From Polyangiaceae bacterium (lineage in GTDB: Bacteria; Myxococcota_A; Polyangia; Polyangiales; Polyangiaceae), in assembly GCA_947475525.1 (NCBI GenBank), contig CANJMI010000011.1, positions 1 to 64,000 of the forward strand: a stretch of 64,000 bases of DNA, given 5' to 3'. How positions within the stretch are numbered: the stretch's first letter is position 1; each line of letters opens with the position of its first letter. Positions 6,755-19,546 of the stretch are shown here, one piece after another. The notes beneath the pieces are model-generated. The model was not told the DNA's origin and searched no databases. It saw only the letters and a program-made list of their open reading frames with translations. Position numbers and translations under genes: made by a program.

Positions 6755-8452
6755 TCACCCGGGCTTTGCGAGGCTCGGAGCGGAGCTCGCGCCGCGATCT
6801 TCGGTCGGTCGCGGTCGGACGCGGGAAGGCATCAGCCCTTTCGTCGGGACCGTGTAGACGGGCTCTTCTTGCAGGCCCTCGCGTGCGAGGAGCGCGTTTG
6901 CAGCGAGGAGGCCCGAGGTGGCGGCAGCTTCCATCAACATCGCCGGGCAGGGCAGCTTCACCCAGTCACCGGCGAGGACGAGACCGTCGGCCTCGGTCAC
7001 GGTGCCGGGCCTTCGGGCGTAGAGTCCGCAGTGAAACGCCGTAAAATCGTCCTTCAATTGAAAGGCCTCGTGCACCATGGTGGCGCCTGAGAGCTCTGGA
7101 AAATAGCGCTCCAGCTCCGCTCGGAAAGCAGCCTTCACCGCGCTCTCATCCGCCAGTTCGTCGGGCACGGCGTAGGAATGCAACTCCACCACCGAGCCGT
7201 GATGGCGAGCCGCCCAAGCGCGCGCCTGCGGTGTAATCCGGTGGTACATCGACACCGAGTCGAGCAACCGATAGCGCTCCGTGTTGACGAACACGGGCAC
7301 GTCATCCCGAACGGGACGGTCGAGCCAGAGCCGCCACACCGAATAGCGCTGCGACGATTTGACTGCGGCGAGCGCTTGCGACAGCGAAGGGTGCTTTTGA
7401 GCGAGGAGGGGCGAGCTTTCGATCACGCGCCGTACCCCCGATACGTCCGCGGCGAGCACGAGCGCGTCGAAGCGTGTGCCATCCACCTCGAAGCCCGTGC
7501 TGAGCGGCGCTATGGCGTTCACTCCACGACCGAGCTCGACATGCACGCCGAGCCCTTGCATGTGCGCACGCCATGGGCCGAGGATCGCGGTCTCGTGATG
7601 CTCGACGGGGTAGTCGTAGAGAAGCCCGGAGTCGTTCGATAAGTAATAGAAGTGGAAGCTCTTCACGAGCTCCGCGAGGGAGATGCGGTCGTGTTCGCTG
7701 AAGAACGCTCGGGCAAACGTGTTGAACACGATTTGGAGCTTCGGCGGCAGCTGCGCCTCTTCGGCGAACGCGCTGAAGGGGACGTCGTCGTAGAGCTCAA
7801 ACGTCTTCTCGGGGTGGTACTCGAGAAAGACCCCCATCTCGTCGCGCGCTCGCGTGAAAAGGATCTCGCCGAGGCGAAAGAGTCCCTTCCGCTGCAGATC
7901 GAGGAGGTTCAAAAGCGGCGTCCGAACTCGATCGTCGAAGGAGAGCCGTTCGTGGCTGTGAGTGACGATCAAATAGTCATCGATGGCGGCGAAGTTCTTC
8001 CGAACGTCAATCTTTTTGAGGAGCCCGTCGAGATTGTAATAATGCCGAAAAAAGGCATGAAATCCGTGCTCGACCTCGAGTTCTTCACCGCTCTCCTGTC
8101 GCTCCGTCCAGGCTCCGAGTTTGCCCCCGAGGTAGGGGTTCTTGTCTCGTAGCGTGACCTCGAAACCACGCTCCGCGAGCGTCGTGGCGGCGCTCATTCC
8201 CGCGATGCCCGCTCCCACGACGAGGACCGACCTCGGGACGTCGAGCTTGTGCGGAGCCAAGGCGTTTTGGTGGTCGATGCGCTGGCGATAACCGCCGAGC
8301 CGCCGCTCGATGGCTGGTGCCAAGCAGGCCGAGAGGGCCGAGTCATGGCGGGCAGGCAGCCCCCTTCGTGCGCCGCCCCTTTGAACCCCGAGGAGCAGCC
8401 GAAGGCCCGCCGCGCCCAACCAAAGCGCACCGAATACCAGCGCGGGATTCAC
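6755..8452 (-). CDS. crtU: CrtU-like carotenoid desaturase/methyltransferase (aryl-ring forming family)
   Basis: A 565-residue FAD-dependent protein of the CrtI/CrtU superfamily. The start chosen is the GTG at 8452, which overlaps the upstream stop (GTGA). This gives an N-terminal hydrophobic segment (residues 4-22) before the FAD-binding VLVVGAGIAG at 76-85. Diagnostic CrtU/CruE features are GFHAFFRHYYNL near 130, FARAFFSEHDRISLAELV in the middle, DSGLLYDYPVEHH, and a C-terminal AGDWVKLPCPAMLMEAAATSG followed by EPVYTVP. CrtU enzymes convert beta-ionone ends of beta- or gamma-carotene to aromatic phi or chi rings. It is the last gene of the left arm of the carotenoid cluster. The alternative is another carotenoid oxidoreductase in the same superfamily. 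Family membership is strong; the exact reaction is inferred. Confidence 0.68.
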   Translation of the reverse strand: MNPALVFGALWLGAAGLRLLLGVQRGGARRGLPARHDSALSACLAPAIERRLGGYRQRIDHQNALAPHKLDVPRSVLVVGAGIAGMSAATTLAERGFEVTLRDKNPYLGGKLGAWTERQESGEELEVEHGFHAFFRHYYNLDGLLKKIDVRKNFAAIDDYLIVTHSHERLSFDDRVRTPLLNLLDLQRKGLFRLGEILFTRARDEMGVFLEYHPEKTFELYDDVPFSAFAEEAQLPPKLQIVFNTFARAFFSEHDRISLAELVKSFHFYYLSNDSGLLYDYPVEHHETAILGPWRAHMQGLGVHVELGRGVNAIAPLSTGFEVDGTRFDALVLAADVSGVRRVIESSPLLAQKHPSLSQALAAVKSSQRYSVWRLWLDRPVRDDVPVFVNTERYRLLDSVSMYHRITPQARAWAARHHGSVVELHSYAVPDELADESAVKAAFRAELERYFPELSGATMVHEAFQLKDDFTAFHCGLYARRPGTVTEADGLVLAGDWVKLPCPAMLMEAAATSGLLAANALLAREGLQEEPVYTVPTKGLMPSRVRPRPTEDRGASSAPSLAKPG

Positions 8453-9228
8453 TCTGGATCCAGCGTTGCCGCAACGGCAGTCGAGCAGCTTGCGCTCGCA
8501 TCGAGGCGCACGAGCCGAAAGTGGCTGCGCGCGAGCTCCGGCGCCGCAGCGGGTGGCGAGCTCAGCATCGATGAGGTCGCCTCCAGCACCACCTGCTCGT
8601 TGCCAAAGCGGAGCGCCCCTTCGATGCGATCGCTCGTGACCCGTTTCGCCACGAGCTCGGTCCAGGTCCGTTGAACGACGCGAATGTCGCCGTTCACGAT
8701 GCCACGAACGTTGACCGTCACGCCGGGGTGGCCATCCTCGTCCTGATCGTAGATCCGCGGGTCGCTGATGACGCTCGGTAACGGGTCGGTTTCGAGCCGC
8801 TCGAGCTTCGCACCGAGAACAATCGTCTGCCGGGCCTGGGTGAACGTCATCACGCCATCTTTTTCGATGAGCCGGCCGTTCACCCGCGGCGGTGGCAAAG
8901 CCCCGCGAAGCGCCTGCGGGAGGATGGTCCTCACGAACGAGCTGCCACTGTCCAACTCGAGCTTGCAGATGCGCCCTTTGCCCTTCAGACGTTCTCCCCG
9001 TTGCTTCAGGCTGTGAATGGACACGGCCGTGGTGGTCGCATACACGCGGCCTATGACGGGCACGTTCGCGACCGTGGTGGTCACTTGAAGAAGCGCCCAT
9101 CGTCCGCTGTACGGACCGAGCGGCTCAGCGTGGGCCGAGCCCGTCCCGAGAAGCGAAGCCAGGCTCACGGAAAAAACGACGACGCGCCGTATTCTTTGTA
9201 AAAAACCTAGGTGAACGGTGTTTCTCAT
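8449..9228 (-). CDS. Secreted protein of unknown function within the carotenoid operon
   Basis: A 259-residue protein with a clear signal peptide (arginines, then VVVFSVSLASLLGTGSAHAEP, cleavage near Ala-His-Ala). The mature part is about 220 residues and rich in beta-strand-like sequence, with a DQDEDGHPG acidic loop that could bind calcium. No family was recognised. It starts 8 bases after the crtD stop and its TGA overlaps the GTG start of the crtU-like gene, so it is translated as part of the pigment operon. An exported protein is unexpected here: carotenoid enzymes work in the inner membrane, so this one could help move, store or bind carotenoid glycosides in the periplasm or outer membrane. 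That role is speculation based on position. Confidence 0.72.
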   Translation of the reverse strand: MRNTVHLGFLQRIRRVVVFSVSLASLLGTGSAHAEPLGPYSGRWALLQVTTTVANVPVIGRVYATTTAVSIHSLKQRGERLKGKGRICKLELDSGSSFVRTILPQALRGALPPPRVNGRLIEKDGVMTFTQARQTIVLGAKLERLETDPLPSVISDPRIYDQDEDGHPGVTVNVRGIVNGDIRVVQRTWTELVAKRVTSDRIEGALRFGNEQVVLEATSSMLSSPPAAAPELARSHFRLVRLDASASCSTAVAATLDPE

Positions 9229-9236
9229 GGGTCGGC

Positions 9237-10700
9237 TCAAGGCGCTCCGAGGTCGTCGAGGGCTTCGCGAGCGGCGGCGCGGCCGGACAAGGCCGCGAGT
9301 GGCATGCCGCCGCCTGGGTGGGCGCTGCCGCTTGCGAGATAGAGCCCCGGCTGGATGCGGTTCGCCGGTCGCTTGAACGCCGCCATGGAGCTGTTCGATG
9401 CCGCGCCATAGAGGCTGCCGCGGCTCCCCGGGAAGCGCGCCGCAAGGTCGGCTGGCGTGCGCGACCAGAGCACTCTCGAAGCGGGACTCAGCAGTCCACG
9501 CACACGCGCGCGTTCGAGCACTTCTTCGCCGAGCACCCGCCATTCGTCGCGTGGGCTCTCGCCGTTGGGCGCAAGTGCTGGTGCGTTGGCCATCAGAAAC
9601 ATCGGAGCTTCGTCTCCCCACGTGTCGAACTCGTGGCAGAGCCCGAGGTCACAGAGGTAGACCGTGGGCTCGCGCGGCGGGCGCTTGTTGTCGAAGAGGT
9701 CGCGAAACTCATCGAGGTAATTATCAGGAAAAAGCACGGTATGCGCGGCGCGCGTGGCGAGTTTCTGCGTCCGCACGATGGCGTTGTAGCCCGACGTCGA
9801 TGGGGCGTCGTCCTTCGGCGCACCCCGCAGCGAAGGCGCGAGCTCACGGTAGAGGTGCTGAGCTTCCGTGTTGGCCACGACGAGGTCGGCGCCAAGTGTG
9901 CCCGCGTCCGTACGTACGCCGGTGACCCGTTTGCCGTCGAACATCACTTCGCGCACCGGCTCGTCGAAACGGTAGCCGACTCCGAGTCGCTCACCTGCGC
10001 GGACGAGGGCGCGTATCAGCTCGTGGATCCCGCCCTTCACGCCGAAGCCACCGAGTCCGAGCTCCACGTGAGCGATGCAGTTCAAGGTGGCCGGGGCGCT
10101 GCGGGTATCGGAGCCGTTGTACGTCGCGTAACGCGCGAAGAGCCACTGCAGCTGCTGCGATTTTACGCGCTTGCGAATGGCGCTCCACATTTTGCTCAAG
10201 CCATCGATCTTGGCGAGCTGAGCGATGGCGCGTGGTCCCTGCATCACGAGCTGACCAATCGTGGGGCTCGGTCCGTACACGAACGCGGGGGAGGCGGTGT
10301 CCCAGATGACCTTGGAATAGTCCATGAAAGCCGCAAATTCACTGGCTGCGGTGCTTCCTAGTGTGCGAGCCACGCTCTCCTCGGTACGCCGAAGCTCGTG
10401 GAACACGTCGAGGACGACGCCGTCCGGGAAGAGGTAACGGAATGCCGGATCGGGGCGCGTCAGCGTCACCTCGGCGGCGAGGCTCGAGCCCGAAAGGCGA
10501 AAGAGCTCGTCGAAGACGTCCGGCATGGTGAGCACGCTTGGGCCGGTGTCGAGCGTGAGGCCATCGAGCTCGACCGTGGCCGCCTTGCCGCCTGCGTTCG
10601 GTCCTGCCTCGATGACAGTGACGTGGACCCCTTCGCTCGCGAGCACGATGGCCGCGCTCAGGCCGCCTATCCCGGCTCCGACCACAATCGCTTGTTTCAT
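9237..10700 (-). CDS. crtD: CrtD-like carotenoid 3,4-desaturase
   Basis: A 487-residue phytoene-desaturase-family flavoprotein of normal length. It begins KQAIVVGAGIGGLSAAIVLA, the FAD-binding Rossmann motif, followed by EAGPNAGGKAATVELDGL and LDTGPSVLTMP, and ends with LYLASGSAHPGGGMPLAALSGR, the C-terminal FAD motif. The GPSVLTMPDVFDELF segment and the overall pattern suit CrtD (1-hydroxycarotenoid 3,4-desaturase) more than the CrtI at 16193. Its presence beside crtC supports this, since CrtD acts after CrtC in the same end group. Its ATG overlaps the acyltransferase stop by four bases. It could also be a second CrtI, as in the CrtIa/CrtIb pair of Myxococcus. Confidence 0.75.
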   Translation of the reverse strand: MKQAIVVGAGIGGLSAAIVLASEGVHVTVIEAGPNAGGKAATVELDGLTLDTGPSVLTMPDVFDELFRLSGSSLAAEVTLTRPDPAFRYLFPDGVVLDVFHELRRTEESVARTLGSTAASEFAAFMDYSKVIWDTASPAFVYGPSPTIGQLVMQGPRAIAQLAKIDGLSKMWSAIRKRVKSQQLQWLFARYATYNGSDTRSAPATLNCIAHVELGLGGFGVKGGIHELIRALVRAGERLGVGYRFDEPVREVMFDGKRVTGVRTDAGTLGADLVVANTEAQHLYRELAPSLRGAPKDDAPSTSGYNAIVRTQKLATRAAHTVLFPDNYLDEFRDLFDNKRPPREPTVYLCDLGLCHEFDTWGDEAPMFLMANAPALAPNGESPRDEWRVLGEEVLERARVRGLLSPASRVLWSRTPADLAARFPGSRGSLYGAASNSSMAAFKRPANRIQPGLYLASGSAHPGGGMPLAALSGRAAAREALDDLGAP

Positions 10701-11482
10701 GTTCGGACTGCGCCTTTTTGTCGCGCGCTCGTGGCCGAGTTTGCGGCTTCTTTGCCAAAAGGTTTAAGGAGCTTCGCGGCGCGTGGTTCGGCTGCGTTCG
10801 CGCTCGGTGCCGAGAGCTCTTCAAAGTCACCTTCGGCTCGGGTGGCGAAGGCGTCGATGCGTCCGAGTGCGCTCTCGAGCCCGGCTTCGAGCGCACCGAG
10901 GAGGGCACGCCGGCTCAAGCCTCGCGGCTCGATCGGTTGGCCAAAAGAAGCGAACGCTGCGGGCTTCTCCGTCCGCCGATACAGGTAATTCAACGCGAGG
11001 GGGATGACCGGCATTCCACCGGCTTCTGCGAGCACGGCGACCCCGCTTTTCAGGCCGAGCGGACGCAAGTGAGCGGGCCGCTGTTCGCCCTGCGGAAAAA
11101 TCCACAGTGCCTTTCCAGGACCGTCGAGCAAGGCCACCGATGCGTGGAGCTGCCCCAACGCTTCGCGCGGATTTTTCCGATCGATCGCGATGGCGCCGAG
11201 CCAGCCGAAAAATGGCAGGCGTGTCAGGTTGTCTCGTTCCATGAGCGCATAACTATGGGCGCCGAGCGCTTCGTCGATCCGCACCGCGAACAGCGGGTCC
11301 CACCAAGCCACGTGGGTGGGAGCGAGAATGACCGGCCCTGCCTGCAAGAGTCGTCGCAGCGCGGGGGCGCCTTCGAGGTACACCCCGTCGAAATTCTTTT
11401 TCATGCGCGAGCGCACATACCAGCGTGCAAGCCTCAAGAAGCCTGGACGACGGGTGACCAAGGGACCGCTCTGTGGGCTCAT
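10697..11482 (-). CDS. PlsC-like acyltransferase, probable carotenoid-glycoside acyltransferase (CruD-like)
   Basis: A 261-residue protein of the 1-acyl-glycerol-3-phosphate acyltransferase family. The catalytic H-x4-D motif is in PTHVAWWDPLF near residue 60, and the second block is GWLGAIAIDR with LWIFPQGEQR, matching the usual F-P-E-G-like motif as F-P-Q-G. The start at 11482 and the stop at 10697 both overlap neighbours by four bases (ATGA), so it is firmly in the operon. The nearby glycosyltransferase suggests it esterifies the sugar of a carotenoid glycoside with a fatty acid, as CruD does in green sulfur bacteria; myxobacteria are known for carotenoid glucoside esters. The C-terminal 50 residues are Ala-rich and low complexity. 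The substrate is inferred from context. Confidence 0.72.
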   Translation of the reverse strand: MSPQSGPLVTRRPGFLRLARWYVRSRMKKNFDGVYLEGAPALRRLLQAGPVILAPTHVAWWDPLFAVRIDEALGAHSYALMERDNLTRLPFFGWLGAIAIDRKNPREALGQLHASVALLDGPGKALWIFPQGEQRPAHLRPLGLKSGVAVLAEAGGMPVIPLALNYLYRRTEKPAAFASFGQPIEPRGLSRRALLGALEAGLESALGRIDAFATRAEGDFEELSAPSANAAEPRAAKLLKPFGKEAANSATSARQKGAVRT

Positions 11483-12630
11483 GCTTTGAGGCGCTCCTGG
11501 CGCGAGGCGTAGGTTCGGCCACGCCAGCGCAGACGGTTTTCGATCGACCAACGCCGCGAGTTGAAGGCCACACAGAGGAGCCCGATGACCGCCAACGGCT
11601 GCAGCAGGATCCCACTCGCCGGCTGAGAAAAACGAGCCGCCAGGAGCGAACGTAGGAGCACATTGCAAGCGACTCCGAGCGCGCCTGAGTAGAGTTGCGC
11701 GGCGTCGCCAGTGAGCAGTCCGCTGACGAGAAAAACGTACGGCATGAGAAAGCAGGCGGCGTAGAGAACGACCACTGCGCCGAGCGCCAACGCAGTCCCG
11801 CCAATGCCTTCGTAGAGGTTCTTCGAGAAGCCATCCCACACCTCTTGGGCCCCCGTGTACATGCGGCATCGCGCGATACGAAAACCATCCGCGAACACCA
11901 GCTGCTGACCGCTGACCTTCAAGCGCCGGCAAAAGGCCATGTCGTCGACGAGCTCGTTCTTCACACTCTCAAATCCGCCGATCGCATCGTAAGCCGTCCG
12001 TCGCACGGCGAGCAGCTGCCCGTTCGCCGCGAGAAAACGTGGGTCGCGACTCCGCTGCACGAGCAGGAGAGGGAACCAACTCGTGTAGGTGAGGATCAGC
12101 AACGGCACAATCAGGCGTTCAGCGAAGCTCACGACCTCCTGCCGTGGAACGGCCGTGACGGCGGCCAGAGCGGGACTTTTTTCAGGCGCTAGAAGCGAAA
12201 GTACCCGCGCCACGCCTTCGGCCTCGAGTGCGGTGTCGGCGTCGATGAAGAAGAGCACCTCGCCGGTGGCCGCGAGGGCGAGTTGATGGCAAGCGTGTGG
12301 CTTCCCTATCCACCCGTCCGGGAGTGGCGCGCCCGAGATGAGGCGGACACGTCGATCTTCGAGGCTGAGTTGCTGCACCTTTCGGGCGGTGTCGTCACTC
12401 GACTGGTCATCGTAGACGAGGACCTCCAGGACGCGTGTGGCGTCGGCCAGCGCGGCGCGAACCGAGTGCTCGATGTGGTGGGCTTCGTTGCGCGCGGGGA
12501 TGAGCACGCTCACCGATGGGTGCCCGATTCGGTTCTGAACGGTGCCGCGAGGCCACGTCACGAGGTTGAAGAGCGTCAGCCCGAGTGGCAAACAGGCCGG
12601 GAGCGCGAAGGTCCAGAGCGCGTCGCTCAT
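11479..12630 (-). CDS. GT2 glycosyltransferase, probable carotenoid glycosyltransferase (CruC-like)
   Basis: A 383-residue membrane glycosyltransferase. An N-terminal anchor (residues 5-25) precedes the GT2 fold: VSVLIPARNEAHHIEHSV, VLVYDDQSSDDT, a catalytic FIDADTALE (DxD), and ELVDDMAFCRRLK as the later acidic motif. Three or four transmembrane helices follow at roughly 275-360. The layout resembles CruC, CrtQ and HpnB-type enzymes that transfer sugars to lipid or carotenoid acceptors. It sits between crtC, which supplies the tertiary hydroxyl acceptor, and the acyltransferase, with four-base ATGA overlaps at both ends. The role in carotenoid glycosylation is therefore well supported by context, though not proven by sequence. 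Confidence 0.76.
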   Translation of the reverse strand: MSDALWTFALPACLPLGLTLFNLVTWPRGTVQNRIGHPSVSVLIPARNEAHHIEHSVRAALADATRVLEVLVYDDQSSDDTARKVQQLSLEDRRVRLISGAPLPDGWIGKPHACHQLALAATGEVLFFIDADTALEAEGVARVLSLLAPEKSPALAAVTAVPRQEVVSFAERLIVPLLILTYTSWFPLLLVQRSRDPRFLAANGQLLAVRRTAYDAIGGFESVKNELVDDMAFCRRLKVSGQQLVFADGFRIARCRMYTGAQEVWDGFSKNLYEGIGGTALALGAVVVLYAACFLMPYVFLVSGLLTGDAAQLYSGALGVACNVLLRSLLAARFSQPASGILLQPLAVIGLLCVAFNSRRWSIENRLRWRGRTYASRQERLKA

Positions 12631-13739
12631 GGGCCCGCTCCTGGAGCACGCGAGACTCCGAACCAGTGGCGCAAGAGCCGCATCGCTCGCCCGCTTCGAG
12701 GGCCGTTGAAGAGCGGCACCCAGGCCGAGTTCGGGCCGCTCGCTCGATGCGTGCGCATGCGCACAAAGGGACGCTGCCAGGGGCGATCGATCCGCGCGAC
12801 ATCGACGAGCTCCGCGAAGCCACGGCCCGTCTCACCCGTGGCTTCGCAGCGGGCCTCGATCAAGAAACGCAGGTAAAAAGGGCCCTTTTCGACGACGTGA
12901 AGCACTTTGACGCAGACGACGTGCCCCAGCGGACAACGCAGCGTCACGCTTTCGTGCCAGGTGAGCCCGTAGCGCTGGTGCCGTTTCGGCCCCCACGCGA
13001 ACGGCGTCTTTTCGTCGAGCATCGCGGGTTGTCCAGGCCGTACCGAAAGGACCAGCGGCTCCTCGGGTCCCCCACTTTCGGGAGTCATGGCGTAGAAGAT
13101 GAGCTCGCGCTCCGGAAACGCGATCCGCCCCCATTGCCACGAGGAGAGACCGAGCTGGCTGAGCGGCACTCGGCTCGTGTTCGCGTCGAGGTAGGCGCGC
13201 CCCTCGAGCGCCCAGCCCGCGTCGGAGCCCGTGTCCACCGTCACATGTCCGGTCGCGGTCGGGGCTATCGGGCACCAGTGGTGGCGCGGGTCCCCGTCGG
13301 TGGCTGCGATGCGGCTCGCCGGTCCGGTGACGTCGAGAGCCACGCGGCACCGTTCGCGAGAGCCTGGCACCTTGAGGTCGAGAGCGGCGGTCAGGGTCAC
13401 GTCGTCTCCCTTCCATTCGAGCCTGAGTCGCGACTCGCCGAACTCCCACAGCCACTCATGCGGGAGCAGCGTCACGTTCGCGTGCTCGTGTTCTTGCAGC
13501 AGATAGAACGTCGGCTTGCCGCCTCGGTAGACGACGAAGTTCAGGCCCGGGCGATCGCACGGACGGTCACGTCCCTCGTGGTAGCCCGCAAGGAAGGGCA
13601 AGCCCATGAACGCGATGAGCACCACCCCGTCACCCTGTGCATCGACAAGGTCGCAGTACCACCAGGCAAACGCGCCAGGCGCGGTGAGGTCCACGGCCCC
13701 TGGCAGGTCGTGAGCAGCCCCGATGCTCAGAATGCCCAT
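12627..13739 (-). CDS. crtC: CrtC carotenoid 1,2-hydratase
   Basis: A 370-residue protein of the hydroxyneurosporene synthase family. CrtC adds water across the terminal double bond of an acyclic psi end, giving a 1-hydroxy end group. Recognisable parts are AFAWWYCDLVD, FMGLPFLAGY, DPRHHWCPIAPTATG, the GRAYLDANTSRVPLSQL block and SSWQWGRIAF. The ATG at 13739 (MGILSIGAAHDL) is preferred over a start at 13847, because that one would cross the shared promoter and the divergent crtY-like start. It is the first gene of the left arm and overlaps the glycosyltransferase by four bases. The product is the substrate for glycosylation and for CrtD. No signal peptide is seen; it probably associates with the membrane through lipid substrate. 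Confidence 0.85.
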   Translation of the reverse strand: MGILSIGAAHDLPGAVDLTAPGAFAWWYCDLVDAQGDGVVLIAFMGLPFLAGYHEGRDRPCDRPGLNFVVYRGGKPTFYLLQEHEHANVTLLPHEWLWEFGESRLRLEWKGDDVTLTAALDLKVPGSRERCRVALDVTGPASRIAATDGDPRHHWCPIAPTATGHVTVDTGSDAGWALEGRAYLDANTSRVPLSQLGLSSWQWGRIAFPERELIFYAMTPESGGPEEPLVLSVRPGQPAMLDEKTPFAWGPKRHQRYGLTWHESVTLRCPLGHVVCVKVLHVVEKGPFYLRFLIEARCEATGETGRGFAELVDVARIDRPWQRPFVRMRTHRASGPNSAWVPLFNGPRSGRAMRLLRHWFGVSRAPGAGP

Positions 13740-13779
13740 GATCGGTTCTTCTGTTTGCGCGCGTTCACGAGCGAACCCC

Positions 13780-13797
13780 TTGCAAACCTCTTGCAAA
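13780..13797. promoter_or_regulatory. 11-bp direct repeats, candidate CarH operator
   Basis: TTGCAAA occurs at 13780-13786 and at 13791-13797, exactly 11 bp apart, and a weaker third copy (4 of 7) fits at 13769-13775. The structurally studied Thermus CarH binds tandem 11-bp direct repeats overlapping the -35 region, with a core like TnTACA. Read on the minus strand, the repeats here give TTTGCA, which matches that core at four of five fixed positions. The second repeat overlaps the -35 box of the right-arm promoter and the -10 box of the left-arm promoter. Binding by the CarH-like protein encoded at 18662 is inferred. Confidence 0.5.
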
Positions 13798-13819
13798 GAG
13801 TACACAGCCCGTCTACTGT
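13791..13819 (+). promoter_or_regulatory. Sigma70-type promoter of the right arm (crtY-like to carH)
   Basis: TTGCAA (13791-13796), a 17-base spacer and TACTGT (13814-13819) predict a start near 13826, 20 bases before the crtY-like ATG. An AAAGG ribosome site follows at 13834-13838. Confidence 0.6.
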
Positions 13820-13825
13820 AAGCAA
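13797..13825 (-). promoter_or_regulatory. Sigma70-type promoter of the left arm (crtC to crtU)
   Basis: On the minus strand TTGCTT (13825-13820), a 17-base spacer and TACTCT (13802-13797) predict a start near 13790, about 50 bases before the crtC ATG. It shares almost all of its DNA with the right-arm promoter, so the two polymerases could not bind at the same time. Confidence 0.55.
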
Positions 13826-13845
13826 GCTGTTTGAAAAGGTCGCGC

Positions 13846-15096
13846 ATGCAAAACGCAACAACCCTTCACTGCGACGTGGCCGTCCTCGGTAGCGGTCCTG
13901 CCGGTCTCGCTCTCGCGGCGGCCTTGGCGGAGCGTGGACTGGCGGTCGTTTGCGTCGCGCCCGAACCGCGACGCCCCTGGCTCCCCACCTACGGGATGTG
14001 GGCCGATGAAGAGTCGCTCTTGCCCGCGGGGGCGGTGGCGGCTCGCTACCCAAAGCCGCGTGTGTGGCTTCGAGATGACGAGGGCCTGACGCTCTCCCGT
14101 GGCTACTTGAAACTGGATACGCCGCTCCTGCAGCGGGGGTTGCTCGATCGAGCCGACGCTGCCGGAGTCCGCTTTCTCGACGCGTGGGCCTTCGGAATAG
14201 AACACGTTCCATCGGGAAGCCACTTCGCGACAAGCGCCGGGGTTACCACGCACGCGGCGATCGTCGTGGACGCGTCGGGAGCCGGCTCGACGGCCCTCCT
14301 CCGAGATGGCGCGGACATCGACGCGCATCAGACGGCCTACGGGGCCGTGGTCGAGGTCGTCGAGCATCCGTACCGAGAAGGCGAGATGTCGTTCATGGAT
14401 TTTCGCTGTGTCCCTGGTGCCGATGCGCACGGTGCCCCGTCTTTTCTCTACGTTTTGCCGATCGACGCCCACCGACTCTTCGTTGAAGAGACCTCCCTCG
14501 TGCGCGTCCCCGCTCTTCCGATGGGCGCTCTGAAGGTCCGTCTTGAGGCGCGCCTTCGCCACCTTGGAATTCGCGTTCTCACGGTTCACGAAGAGGAGCA
14601 CTGCTCGATAGCGATGGGCCGTGCGCTACCCACGAGGACGCAACGTCTCTTTGGCTACGGGGCCGCGGCTGCCATGGTGCATCCAGCCACCGGGTACCAG
14701 CTTGCGACCGCGTTGAGGCTCGCTCCCGAGGTCGCGGACGCCCTCCGCGAGGGGCTCGACAGCGGCTCACCTCATGCCGCAGTTCGGTTCGCTTGGGACG
14801 CTCTCTGGTCTTCGCATCGAGTCCGCTCCTGGCACCTGCACCGTTTTGGAATGGCCGCGATGTGCACCCTCGACCTGGCCAACACACAACTTTTTTTCGA
14901 GACCTTCTTCGCCCTCCGACCGAGCGACTACGAGCGCTACCTGGATGGAACGGCGAGCCCGGGCGAACTTTCAATGATGATGCTGCGGCTCTTTCGCTCC
15001 GCGGCCAAACCAACCCAATGGCAGCTGTTCAAACACGGCGTGGGAGCCGGTCGAGCGGCGCTGTGGAACGCCGCCTGGCAAGGAGCATCCGCATGA
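13846..15096 (+). CDS. crtY: CrtL/CrtY-type FAD lycopene cyclase
   Basis: A 416-residue flavoprotein of the lycopene cyclase family. It starts with an FAD-binding VAVLGSGPAGLALAAALAERG (residues 10-30), then has the TYGMWADEE motif near 48, the cyclase-family counterpart of N-Y-G-V-W. FMDFRC, FLYVLPIDAHRLFVEET (residues 205-222) and HPATGYQLATAL (near 280) follow, all in the order expected for CrtL/CrtY cyclases. It forms beta-ionone rings from lycopene ends. The ATG at 13846 is chosen for the AAAGG site upstream; an in-frame TTG lies 15 bases earlier. It begins the right arm and overlaps crtE by four bases. This differs from the heterodimeric CrtYc/CrtYd cyclase of Myxococcus xanthus. Whether it cyclises one or both ends cannot be read from sequence. 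Confidence 0.82.
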   Translation: MQNATTLHCDVAVLGSGPAGLALAAALAERGLAVVCVAPEPRRPWLPTYGMWADEESLLPAGAVAARYPKPRVWLRDDEGLTLSRGYLKLDTPLLQRGLLDRADAAGVRFLDAWAFGIEHVPSGSHFATSAGVTTHAAIVVDASGAGSTALLRDGADIDAHQTAYGAVVEVVEHPYREGEMSFMDFRCVPGADAHGAPSFLYVLPIDAHRLFVEETSLVRVPALPMGALKVRLEARLRHLGIRVLTVHEEEHCSIAMGRALPTRTQRLFGYGAAAAMVHPATGYQLATALRLAPEVADALREGLDSGSPHAAVRFAWDALWSSHRVRSWHLHRFGMAAMCTLDLANTQLFFETFFALRPSDYERYLDGTASPGELSMMMLRLFRSAAKPTQWQLFKHGVGAGRAALWNAAWQGASA

Positions 15097-16199
15097 GCCG
15101 GTCCTACGGTGGTCTGCAACATTCGCCTGAAACGGCCTGGTGCGAAAGCCCCAAGGCTCCGTCTTCCGAGTCTTCCGATCCGCTCGCCGAGGTCGAAAAG
15201 AGAATGCAAGATGCCGCTCTCGCCGTCAGCGCAGATCTCACCAGTGAGATGGCGGTCGAGCATTTGTCGACGGGCGGAAAACGTTTTCGGGCCCGGCTCG
15301 TCATCGACGCCGCCGACGCGCTCGGTGCCCCTCGGCAAGCGGCCATCGGCTGGGCGGCAGCGGTCGAGCTGCTTCACAACGCCACGCTCGTCCACGATGA
15401 CATCCAGGACGGGGACCGGGTGCGTCGCGGCAAAGCCACCGTATGGGCGCGCTACGGCGTCGAGCAGGCGATCAACGCCGGCGACTTTTTGCTCATGCTG
15501 CCCTACCTCGTCGTCACGGAGTTGCCCGTCGAGCCTTCGCTGAAGGCCAGCTTGACGCGCGTTCTCGCTCAGTCGGCGGTGGCCTGCGTGCGCGGCCAGG
15601 TGTCGGAGCTGCAGTTGAAGTCGCTCGAGTTCGTGCCCTGGCCTCGTTACCTCGAAGCGGTCCGCGGTAAGACGGGTGCACTCCTGGCGATGGCCATCGA
15701 AGGCAGCGCGCTCCTGGCGGGACGCTCGTCGAGCGAAGCGGCCGACATCGCGGCTTGTTTTCTGCCCCTCGGGGAGCTCTTCCAGATGCAGGATGACGTG
15801 CTCGACCTTTACGGCGAGAAGGGCCGCTCCGAGCCGGCGAGCGACATCTACGAAGGAAAAATCAGCGCACTCGTGGTGGCTCATCTCGTGCGCTACCCGG
15901 GGGACACCCGCTGGTTACGCGCCCTTCTGAACGCGCCGCGCTACGCCACAAGCTCGAAGGATGCGCAAGAGGCCGTCCAGAGAATTCGAGTCGGTGGTGC
16001 GCTCGCTGACGTCCTTGACCACATCTCCACCATCGAGCGCAAAACTCGCGACTCGTCCGTCCTCGAGCGGGAGCCCGCCCTTAAAAAAACTGCGCTCGAG
16101 CTCTGCCAGTTGGCGCTCAAGCCCATCGCCCACTTGACCGACGTGAGCCTGGCTCACGATGATTCCAAAAAACTTCCGAAGGGTCTTCGTCCATGTTGA
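15093..16199 (+). CDS. crtE: Geranylgeranyl diphosphate synthase
   Basis: A 368-residue trans-isoprenyl diphosphate synthase that makes the C20 precursor of phytoene. The first Asp-rich motif is HDDIQD at 101-106, and the second is QDDVLD further on. GGKRFRARL near 61 and RRGKATVWARYG are further substrate-binding signatures. The N-terminal 30 residues (Ser/Pro/Glu-rich) are an unconserved extension. The ATG at 15093 overlaps the cyclase stop (ATGA) and has AGGAG seven bases upstream. It overlaps crtI by seven bases at its end. The residues before the first Asp motif (NATLV) are small, in line with a chain length of about C20, but that is inference. Confidence 0.88.
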   Translation: MSRSYGGLQHSPETAWCESPKAPSSESSDPLAEVEKRMQDAALAVSADLTSEMAVEHLSTGGKRFRARLVIDAADALGAPRQAAIGWAAAVELLHNATLVHDDIQDGDRVRRGKATVWARYGVEQAINAGDFLLMLPYLVVTELPVEPSLKASLTRVLAQSAVACVRGQVSELQLKSLEFVPWPRYLEAVRGKTGALLAMAIEGSALLAGRSSSEAADIAACFLPLGELFQMQDDVLDLYGEKGRSEPASDIYEGKISALVVAHLVRYPGDTRWLRALLNAPRYATSSKDAQEAVQRIRVGGALADVLDHISTIERKTRDSSVLEREPALKKTALELCQLALKPIAHLTDVSLAHDDSKKLPKGLRPC

Positions 16200-17749
16200 A
16201 TTCATCCAAGGCTCCAGCTGTCGTCGTCGGTGCGGGACTCGGCGGCCTCGCTGCGGCCATTCGATTACGGGCGATGGGGCATCGCGTGGTCGTGCTCGAA
16301 GCGGGCTCTTCGCCGGGCGGCCGCGCGCGCTCGTTCGATCGTGACGGTTACTCCTTCGATGCCGGTCCGACGGTGATCACGGCGCCATACCTCCTGCACG
16401 AACTGTTCGAACTCGTCGGTCGTGATTCGCGGGATTACTTCAAGCTCGTCCCGGTCGATCCTTTTTACCGCGTGCTCTTTTCTGAGGGTGGACACTTCGA
16501 TTACGTGGGCGACGAAGAGCGCTTGCTCGCTCAGATCGAGGACGTGAATCCAGCCGACGTGGACGGCTACCGGCGCATGGTCGCGCACTCGCAGCGGATC
16601 TTCGATGTTGGCTACACTCAGCTCGCCGACAAGCCGTTTACGAGGCTGTCCGACATGCTCCGCATCATGCCCCAGATGGCGCGCTTGAACGCGTACCGCA
16701 GCGTCTACTCGCTCGTATCGAAGTACATCAAGGACGAACGGCTCCGTCAGGTTTTCACTTTTCAACCGCTCCTCGTCGGCGGGAATCCTTTCCATACACC
16801 AGCGATTTACCTGTTGATCCATTGGCTCGAGCGCAAATGGGGTGTCCATTTTGCGATGGGTGGGACGCAATCGATCGTGCGCGGCATGGTGAAGCTCCTC
16901 GAGGAACTCGATGTCGAGGTGAGGCTCGAGACGCCGGTGGAACGGCTCGAGGTCACGGGGCATAACGTCACGGCGGTAGTGACCGCTGACGGCAAGCGAA
17001 CTCCGGCCGCGTTCGCCGTCTGCAACGCGGATCCGTCCACGGTGTACACCCGCCTTCTGGACGCCAAGGACCGCTCGCGGCACTCGGACAAAGCGGTCCT
17101 CGGCAAGCGTCAGTCGATGGGCCTTTTCGTCGGGTACTTCGGAGCTAAAAAAACCTTTCCGGATGTCGCCCACCACACCATCGTCCTCGGCCCGCGTTAC
17201 AAGGGGCTGCTGCACGACGTGTTCGAGAAGAAGACCCTCGCGGATGACTTCTCGCTCTACCTTCACGCCCCGACGCGCACCGATTCGAGTCTCGCACCGG
17301 CCGGCCACGAGAGCTTCTACGTGCTCTCACCCGTGCCCAATCAAAAGAGCGGAATCGATTGGTCGAAGCAGGCGCCCGAGTATCTGGACCGGGTGCTCAC
17401 GCATCTCGAAGCGCGTTGTCTTCCGGGCTTGAAAGCGAATCTCACGACGTCATTTTCGGTCGACCCGCGTTACTTTGAGACGGAGCTTCGCTCGATGGAC
17501 GGCGCGGCGTTTGGCCTTGAACCGCGGCTCACACAATCGGCGTACTTTCGCTATCACAACGTCTCCGAAGACGTCGGGGGGCTGTATTTCGTTGGTGCCG
17601 GCACGCATCCGGGCGCCGGAGTGCCGGGAGTTTTGTCCTCGGCGCGGGTGCTCGAGCGCGTCGTGCCTCGGGGCTCGGAAGCGGTGGCGCGTGAGCTCGT
17701 ACGGCCGTCTACGATTCGCGCGGCTGCAGTCGAACACGGGCTCCCGTGA
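16193..17749 (+). CDS. crtI: Phytoene desaturase CrtI
   Basis: A 518-residue CrtI-type desaturase that converts phytoene to neurosporene or lycopene with FAD. The N-terminal Rossmann motif VVVGAGLGGLAAAIRLRAMG and EAGSSPGGRARSF are intact, DAGPTVITAPYL follows, and the C-terminal motif is LYFVGAGTHPGAGVPGVLSSA. Length and motifs are those of the main bacterial CrtI. Compared with the CrtD-like gene, this one carries the canonical VGAGTHPGAGVPG ending. It starts inside the crtE end and its TGA overlaps the GTG of crtB, so crtE, crtI and crtB are translated as a unit. Confidence 0.9.
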   Translation: MLNSSKAPAVVVGAGLGGLAAAIRLRAMGHRVVVLEAGSSPGGRARSFDRDGYSFDAGPTVITAPYLLHELFELVGRDSRDYFKLVPVDPFYRVLFSEGGHFDYVGDEERLLAQIEDVNPADVDGYRRMVAHSQRIFDVGYTQLADKPFTRLSDMLRIMPQMARLNAYRSVYSLVSKYIKDERLRQVFTFQPLLVGGNPFHTPAIYLLIHWLERKWGVHFAMGGTQSIVRGMVKLLEELDVEVRLETPVERLEVTGHNVTAVVTADGKRTPAAFAVCNADPSTVYTRLLDAKDRSRHSDKAVLGKRQSMGLFVGYFGAKKTFPDVAHHTIVLGPRYKGLLHDVFEKKTLADDFSLYLHAPTRTDSSLAPAGHESFYVLSPVPNQKSGIDWSKQAPEYLDRVLTHLEARCLPGLKANLTTSFSVDPRYFETELRSMDGAAFGLEPRLTQSAYFRYHNVSEDVGGLYFVGAGTHPGAGVPGVLSSARVLERVVPRGSEAVARELVRPSTIRAAAVEHGLP

Positions 17750-18657
17750 CGAGCGCCGTCAACGCGCTTCAGCATGGGCGTGAGAGCCTGCGACGGCACG
17801 CGCGAACGTTCCGCGTGGCGTCGTGGTTTTTGCCCCAGGCGAGCCGTGACGATGCGTCGCTCGTGTACGCCTATTGCCGCGAGCTGGACGATGCGGTCGA
17901 TGAGGCGCCGAATCCCGAAGTCGCGCGGGTGCGCGTTCAGCTCGTCGAACGAGGCGAAGTCGCAGAGGCTTTTCGCGAGGTCGCGGCCAGACGCGGGTTC
18001 GCTCCGGGCATAGCGCAGCACCTGGTGGCGGGGATTCAGTCGGATCTCGGGCTGGTTCGGATCGCCGACGACGCGGCGCTGCTCCGTTACTGCTACCAGG
18101 TGGCCGGCACCGTCGGCGTGATGATGTGCGGCGTCCTCGGAGTGAAAGAGCCGTGCGCGCTGCCACACGCGGTGGACCTGGGCGTGGGCATGCAGTTGAC
18201 GAACATCTGCCGGGACGTGCTCGAAGATGCACGTCTTGGTCGCGTCTACTTACCGGCGAGCCGTCTTCACGCGGTGGGACTCACTCAGGAACAGCTGCTG
18301 GCGGGAACGGCCGAGCCGGCCTCGCTGTCACGCCTCGTGGATGGGCTCCTCGTGCTCGCCGACCGCTATTATCAGAGCGCTGACGCGGGAATGCCCTTCA
18401 TCCCCGCGCGATCACGGCTCGCCATCGTCGTTGCGAGCAAGCTTTACCGGGGGATCGGCGTGCGCCTGAGAAGGCACCATGGTTCGAATCCCCTGCATGG
18501 TAGAACGCGCGCTTCGTTTGCCGACAAGGTGGTCGGCGTGTGCTCAGCGCTCGGTTTCTGGTTCTGGATGAGTTTGTTTTGGCGTCCCGGTTCGCGCCCG
18601 CACGAGCGCGCACTTCATCAGCATTTGACTCAGTTTCCGGGCGTTTCTGTCGATTAA
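17746..18657 (+). CDS. crtB: Phytoene synthase
   Basis: A 303-residue squalene/phytoene synthase that joins two geranylgeranyl diphosphates. The first Asp-rich motif lies in YCRELDDAVDE (residues 43-53), and the second in LTNICRDVLEDARLGRVYLP near 150. RTFRVASWFLP at the N-terminus is also conserved. The GTG start at 17746 overlaps the crtI stop (GTGA); no ATG in frame gives a better start. A hydrophobic C-terminal segment (VVGVCSALGFWFWMSLFW) suggests membrane attachment. The stop is four bases before the carH-like gene. Confidence 0.9.
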   Translation: MTSAVNALQHGRESLRRHARTFRVASWFLPQASRDDASLVYAYCRELDDAVDEAPNPEVARVRVQLVERGEVAEAFREVAARRGFAPGIAQHLVAGIQSDLGLVRIADDAALLRYCYQVAGTVGVMMCGVLGVKEPCALPHAVDLGVGMQLTNICRDVLEDARLGRVYLPASRLHAVGLTQEQLLAGTAEPASLSRLVDGLLVLADRYYQSADAGMPFIPARSRLAIVVASKLYRGIGVRLRRHHGSNPLHGRTRASFADKVVGVCSALGFWFWMSLFWRPGSRPHERALHQHLTQFPGVSVD

Positions 18658-18661
18658 AAAT

Positions 18662-19546
18662 ATGGGCTATCGCATCAAGACCGTGTCCGATTTGACCGGC
18701 ATCCCGAAGAACACGCTCATCGCGTGGGAGCGCCGGTACGGAATCGTCGCCCCCGAGCGGCACGGGAACCAGTACCGAAGCTATTCCGATGATGACCTCG
18801 CCGTTTTGAAGCGGCTGAAGCGGCTCACGGAAGAGGGTTACAAAATAAGCGAAGCGGTCCTGATTGTCCGTCGCCCGGGCCTTGCGTCCGAGGGAGGGCC
18901 GAGCGCGCTCAGCGATCGTTCCGAGTCGGCCTCGCTCGAGCCCGCTCGACGGGACCTCCTGCAGGCGCTGCTCGCTTTTTCGCCACTCCGTGCCGAAGAG
19001 GTGCTCCAGCGCTACGCTTCGTTGCCGTACACGCGGCTCATCGAGGAACTCTATTATCCCGTTCTGCGCGCCGTCGGCGAAGGCTGGATAGCGGGGAATG
19101 TCTCGATGGCTCAGGAACACTATGTGACAGCGTTCTGTCGCGAGCGCTTCATGGCGATGTTGATGCAACTCGGCGCCGTGCGCGGCACTGGACCTCACGC
19201 GATCTGCACGACGTATCCCGGTGATTTGCACGAGCTTGGTGCCATCGGGACGGCGGTGCAGTTGGCGATTTCGGGATGGCGCATCACCTACCTCGGCCCC
19301 AATCTTCCCGCGAGCGAGCTTCACAAGACGAGTCATGCTGTGAAACCCGACTGGGTCTGTGTGTCGATGGTTGTCTCGGCGCCCGAAGCCGCTCTCAGCG
19401 CCTACATCGAGGAGGTCAGTTGTGCGCTCCCGAAGCGCAGTTGGCTGGTGGTCGGTGGTGCGGGCACGAGCGGCTACCAGGGACCGGTGCCGAAGCGTGT
19501 TCTGGTCACCCAGGACTGGCGCGAGTTGATGCCCGAGCCCGCCTGA
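18662..19546 (+). CDS. carH: CarH-like MerR-family B12-dependent light regulator
   Basis: A 294-residue regulator. Residues 3-65 are a MerR-type winged helix (VSDLTGIPKNTLIAWERRYG), and residues 95-290 a helical bundle plus Rossmann-like cobalamin-binding domain. The B12-binding DxHxxG motif is D188-L-H190-E-L-G193, and the adenosyl-cap motif W-x9-E-H is W142...E152-H153, so it should bind adenosylcobalamin. In characterised CarH the dark tetramer represses carotenoid genes and light breaks the Co-C bond to release DNA. The residue after W142 is Ile, where Thermus CarH has His132, the light-state upper ligand. It ends the right arm four bases after crtB, which gives autoregulation, probably through the repeats at 13780-13797. 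Confidence 0.87.
   Translation: MGYRIKTVSDLTGIPKNTLIAWERRYGIVAPERHGNQYRSYSDDDLAVLKRLKRLTEEGYKISEAVLIVRRPGLASEGGPSALSDRSESASLEPARRDLLQALLAFSPLRAEEVLQRYASLPYTRLIEELYYPVLRAVGEGWIAGNVSMAQEHYVTAFCRERFMAMLMQLGAVRGTGPHAICTTYPGDLHELGAIGTAVQLAISGWRITYLGPNLPASELHKTSHAVKPDWVCVSMVVSAPEAALSAYIEEVSCALPKRSWLVVGGAGTSGYQGPVPKRVLVTQDWRELMPEPA

Follow-up and report, generated by a model that had tools for sequence, protein, structure and literature searches.

The gap between the divergent carotenoid genes crtC and lycopene cyclase is probably an operator for CarH that spans two face-to-face sigma-A promoters and through which light would control transcription in both directions. The overlap of the promoters had been recognized in the original prediction of a compact bidirectional promoter, which overlooked both the probable operator lying over them and the near-palindrome whose arms they form.

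Two carotenoid operons and their probable regulator

The window, by which we mean the whole 64,000-nucleotide stretch of DNA that was analysed, carries carotenoid genes on either side of the gap, as follows.

9237–10700, minus strand: crtD, 1-hydroxycarotenoid 3,4-desaturase type (NF045637, E 4e-108, below cut-off)
10697–11482, minus strand: acyltransferase, PlsC-like (PF01553), its start provisionally placed at the ATG at 11482
11479–12630, minus strand: family 2 glycosyltransferase, CruG/HpnB-like
12627–13739, minus strand: crtC, carotenoid 1,2-hydratase type, which opens the minus operon (NF045922, E 1.6e-16, below cut-off; no Pfam match)
13846–15096, plus strand: lycopene cyclase (lcy), CrtL/CrtY family (PF05834, E 7e-84; TIGR01790 above cut-off)
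15093–16199, plus strand: crtE, geranylgeranyl diphosphate synthase type (PF00348, E 7e-53), its start overlapping the lcy stop
16193–17749, plus strand: crtI, phytoene desaturase (TIGR02734, 597 bits)
17746–18657, plus strand: crtB, phytoene synthase (PF00494, E 2e-60)
18662–19546, plus strand: carH, MerR-type regulator with a B12-binding domain, last gene of the plus operon

The genes from lcy to carH probably form a single operon, since each start overlaps the stop before it or follows that stop by no more than 5 bp. Judged from the pathway, the right arm would provide synthesis of the C40 backbone, its cyclisation and the regulator, and the left arm would modify the other end group, with a chemistry as in glycosylated, acylated hydroxycarotenoids. 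A predicted secreted protein is encoded at 8449–9228 on the minus strand, between crtD and a second amine-oxidase-like desaturase of the minus cluster. The divergent order of crtC (minus) and lcy (plus) is found again in a same-genus genome (G003), in two paralogous clusters, as well as in further genera of the family (G072, G066, G092, G094 and G096), and is widespread in Myxococcota and Gemmatimonadota records.

The carH product has the domain set of a CarH protein (PF13411, PF02607 and PF02310, the last just under its gathering score) and aligns with Thermus thermophilus CarH (5c8d, E 1.5e-27). Its B12-ligand residues are intact, with Wx9EH (W142, E152, H153), DLHELG and the lower-ligand histidine H190. 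The NCBIfam CarH equivalog NF052513 is still its best family, at 136.8 bits against a cut-off of 400, the protein being too distant to reach it. A second MerR regulator with a B12-binding domain, 29% identical to CarH, is encoded elsewhere in the genome (G000:C16:14726–15577, or L068:6727–7578) and has no carotenoid gene from the searched set beside it. In 'Sorangiineae bacterium NIC37A_2' (L065:1117–1968, with the same locus in L129), the B12-ligand residues of the CarH homologue have been replaced (EH by GQ, and the ligand histidine by W), and the protein may accordingly be B12-independent like CarA, which is reported only from Cystobacterineae (PMC9304148).

A predicted promoter pair inside a conserved symmetric core

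Between the start codons of crtC (13739) and lcy (13846) lie 106 bp, at 13740–13845, one fewer than the 107 bp first given. The hexamer pairs originally predicted there, with their 17-bp spacers, are present on both strands.

13791–13819, plus strand: promoter TTGCAA-17-TACTGT (−35 at 13791–13796, −10 at 13814–13819), best plus-strand candidate
13797–13825, minus strand: promoter TTGCTT-17-TACTCT (−35 at 13825–13820, −10 at 13802–13797), best minus-strand candidate
13834–13839, plus strand: AAAAGG, possible ribosome-binding site of lycopene cyclase, from the sequence
13783–13833, no strand assigned: dyad-symmetric core, CAAACCTCTTGCAAA...GCAAGCTGTTTG, 51 bp, its length and position kept in orthologous gaps

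The plus promoter, with a predicted start near 13826, would serve lcy-crtE-crtI-crtB-carH, and the minus promoter, with a predicted start near 13790, would serve crtC, the glycosyltransferase, the acyltransferase and crtD. The two −10s are separate and 11 bp apart, and the predicted starts are 36 bp apart. Each promoter is weak alone, matching TTGACA/TATAAT at 7 of 12 positions (plus) or 6 of 12 (minus), and neither was listed by a strict consensus scan, which is too strict for a GC-rich genome. With a weight matrix, itself approximate, each ranked first on its own strand within 13725–13860 and no better promoter was found in the gap on either strand; better candidates occur in 1.2% (plus) and 3.9% (minus) of window stretches of equal length. 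The opposed pattern TTGNNN-A...TA-11-TA...T-NNNCAA occurs once in the 64 kb, where a mean of 0.02 is expected, a value that stays at about 0.02 under two ways of writing the pattern. A looser regular expression, composed after the aligned relatives had been seen, matched 0 of 2000 shuffles of the window gap and 0–2 of 2000 for the gaps of relatives. An RNA element or riboswitch in the gap was considered and dropped, as Rfam gave no match there at E up to 1.

The core is common to six loci of the family (the window, G003a, G003b, G094, G072 and G066), always between crtC and lycopene cyclase, and measures 51 bp in all of them except G072, where it is 50 bp. Mean identity between loci is 67% in the core, compared with 31% and 37% in the 22-bp flanks, and 25 core columns are invariant, the identity of the central 11 bp being only 0.33. 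The invariant positions include the outer CAAAC and GTTTG, the TTGCAA that forms the plus −35 and the A after it, GCAA in the minus −35 and, inside the otherwise variable centre, the TA of both −10s. The minus and plus −10s read TACTCT and TACTGT in the window, TATGCT and TAGCTC in G003a, TAGTGT and TACACA in G003b, TATGGT and TAAGGT in G094, TAGGTT and TATACT in G072, and TATCCT and TATGCT in G066, so that the last T is present in 6/6 minus and 4/6 plus hexamers. The promoter spacer is fixed at 17 bp across loci, with 16 in one. Two overlapping divergent promoters for the two operons, as had been proposed, are thus well supported by conservation across loci.

The symmetry of the core is likewise conserved across the six loci. 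In the window 18 of 25 pairs are complementary, and over all loci 105 of 150 paired positions are, falling to 17–31% when the arms are slid by 1–4 bases. The paired positions 8 and 44 show a change from C-G to G-C, and positions 6 and 46 one from C-G to A-T. Permuting the right arms among loci still gave 102 complementary pairs against the 105 observed, such that compensation specific to a locus is not significant. Among 183 genomes of the order, a search with the core pattern found it in five, solely at the crtC/lcy gap, and the reversed control pattern had no match in the same genomes; the search misses G072 owing to its 1-bp deletion. Single-mismatch matches to the CAAAC-TTGCAAA arm at G000:C5:6314, in the window's own genome, and at G001 C57:10979 have no carotenoid gene adjacent and were set aside as chance. 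The near-identical genome G001 contributes no gap, its contig beginning inside crtE. G003 has two copies of the crt-carH cluster (L058 and L059, on contigs C60 and C49), each with its own symmetric core, and the end of contig C60 truncates its copy beyond crtC, within the glycosyltransferase gene. The plus operon ends with carH in the window as well as in those mapped relatives that bear the core (G003 in both copies, G072, G066 and G094).

The candidate CarH operator and its alternatives

The CarH proteins of Thermus and Bacillus bind 11-bp repeats of the form nnnnTnnACAn arranged in tandem; in myxobacteria, CarH also binds operators in which one repeat is full and two are degenerate (PMC9304148). 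In the window, units with this spacing make up two candidate half-operators, the one mirroring the other.

13779–13806, plus strand: left half-operator (candidate), with CTTGCA at 13779, CTTGCA at 13790 and TACACA at 13801
13810–13837, minus strand: right half-operator (candidate), mirrored, with TTTTCA at 13837–13832, CTTGCT at 13826–13821 and TAGACG at 13815–13810

Together with their mirrors, the units at 13790 and 13801 overlap the hexamers of the promoters, whose start sites are predicted; in each half, a TTGCA unit forms the −35 of one promoter and is followed by a unit whose TA lies inside the −10 of the other. Only TACACA at 13801 is a full TnnACA in the window, the other in-register units being degenerate, and the literature motif is marginal there (p ~0.05), so the operator reading leans on relatives. 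The left-half register reads TTGACA, CTTGCA and TAGACA in G066, and the right-half register reads TAGACA in G094 and G072. Across 29 crtC/lcy gaps, some of them from close relatives, tandem TnnACA is most enriched at period 11 of the periods 8–14 (13 gaps at p<0.05, Fisher 1e-13). Period 9 comes second (8 gaps, 8e-10; e.g., L084, L088, L094 and L125), for which partly palindromic units are the sole explanation offered, and not a firm one. The same gap holds near-perfect arrays of four units in L103 (canonical, 15/16 positions) and L099 and of three units in L127, L130 and L129. The Sorangium-type crtD/crtE gap has three perfect tandem units at 11-bp spacing, TGAACA-TAAACA-TAGACA, which agrees with the published footprinted operator, and its array has a 13-mer, CAAAGTATAGACA, in common with the half-operator of G072. 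The 14.78-Mb genome of the family that carries this crtD/crtE array is, we presume from its gene order, a Sorangium strain.

In the mechanism that we propose, two sigma-A-type promoters would point outward from a common 35-bp stretch, the −10 of each abutting the −35 of the other, with their parts inside a dyad-symmetric operator whose units are spaced by 11 bp. CarH, encoded by the last gene of the right operon, would in the dark carry B12, probably sit on both halves and shut RNA polymerase out in both directions. In the light, photolysis of AdoCbl would break the B12 bond and release CarH, both operons would be transcribed and CarH, encoded within the plus operon, would be made anew as feedback. 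The promoter overlap would allow only one polymerase to initiate at a time. Against this mechanism stand the last T of the plus −10, missing in two of the six loci, the single full TnnACA among the window units and the marginal motif there, the additional enrichment at period 9, and the mirrored layout, since published CarH operators are tandem arrays in one direction. Our more specific proposal is a tentative one, namely that two inverted arrays of 11-bp units, made of the promoter hexamers themselves, form a mirrored operator with which CarH locks two nested promoters together.

The simplest alternative, and the one first put forward, is a plain bidirectional promoter whose directions compete for polymerase without a dedicated operator. 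The conserved, opposed and overlapping hexamers fit it, as do the bidirectional promoters of E. coli, at which one bound polymerase sterically excludes another; competition was detected there only under strong activation of one direction, and at basal activity none was seen at the five promoters tested (PMC12825309). Conservation that reaches past the hexamers into the CAAAC/GTTTG outer repeats, the linked carH and the canonical CarH arrays that other species have in this gap make this alternative unlikely. A lower probability still is given to a palindrome that serves a different dimeric regulator, with CarH acting elsewhere: the mirrored 51-bp form, unlike the published tandem CarH operators, and the second MerR-B12 homologue at G000:C16:14726 would suit it, but the core co-occurs with a linked carH, has the 11-bp periodicity, contains the 13-mer also present in the CarH array of Sorangium type and is found nowhere else in the genomes searched. 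That the operator alone is conserved, the hexamers being by-products and transcription starting elsewhere in the gap, is highly improbable, for while TTGCA is part of the repeat unit and the hexamers are weak, both −10s keep an invariant TA step in a variable centre, the spacing is 17 bp in all loci but one and the gap offers no better promoter.

For the preferred reading of a CarH operator over both promoters, exclusion of one polymerase by another is very likely, given the geometry and the published E. coli promoters, and this part of the original prediction stands. The competition between the arms that it had suggested is, with hexamers this weak, no more than possible, and a probable CarH operator predicts joint on/off control of the two operons more than competition.

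Relation to known promoters and operators

If the mirrored operator is real, it would extend the known CarH operator designs, which are tandem and in the same direction, to a dyad-symmetric one. As far as the literature examined shows, neither such a geometry of CarH on DNA nor a mirrored arrangement of 11-bp units nested exactly with two promoters has been described. A single 60-bp element, of a geometry fixed across genera, would balance carotenoid backbone synthesis against decoration by light, as a compact, natural, light-gated two-way promoter at which polymerase chooses a direction with each firing. It would also be a natural test case for when overlapping promoters truly compete.

The bidirectional promoters of E. 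coli (Warman et al. 2026, PMC12825309) likewise make two divergent mRNAs from pseudo-symmetric DNA, and the pair in the window would work alike with a different layout. The starts of the five E. coli promoters tested are 10–23 bp apart around a common −10 region, unlike the separate −10s and more distant predicted starts here. The CarA/CarH operator at Pcrt (PB) of Myxococcus xanthus resembles the core, as it is read here, in its length of ~55 bp, its 11-bp repeats, one of which contains the −35, its inverted-repeat character and its linked carH; it differs in serving a promoter of one direction with a TTGACA −35, in being used by CarA as well and in its CarS antirepressor.

The closest likeness is to the CarH operators PcrtSc1 and PcrtSc2 of Sorangium cellulosum (Perez-Castano et al. 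2022, PMC9304148), a member of the same bacterial family, judged from relatives. Divergent carotenoid operons and a linked carH are found there too, and a shared intergenic site of 11-bp repeats over both promoters is bound by CarH, as proposed for the window; both divergent gene pairs are under B12- and light-dependent control, and the overlap of divergent promoters was remarked upon. Each S. cellulosum site consists of three repeats (DR or dr) in one tandem array of a single direction, between carH and crtI or crtD and crtE, whereas the window has two mirrored candidate arrays of mostly degenerate repeats in a crtC/lycopene cyclase gap. The region most likely belongs to the known crtE/crtD kind of divergent, CarH-controlled region of S. 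cellulosum, differently arranged.
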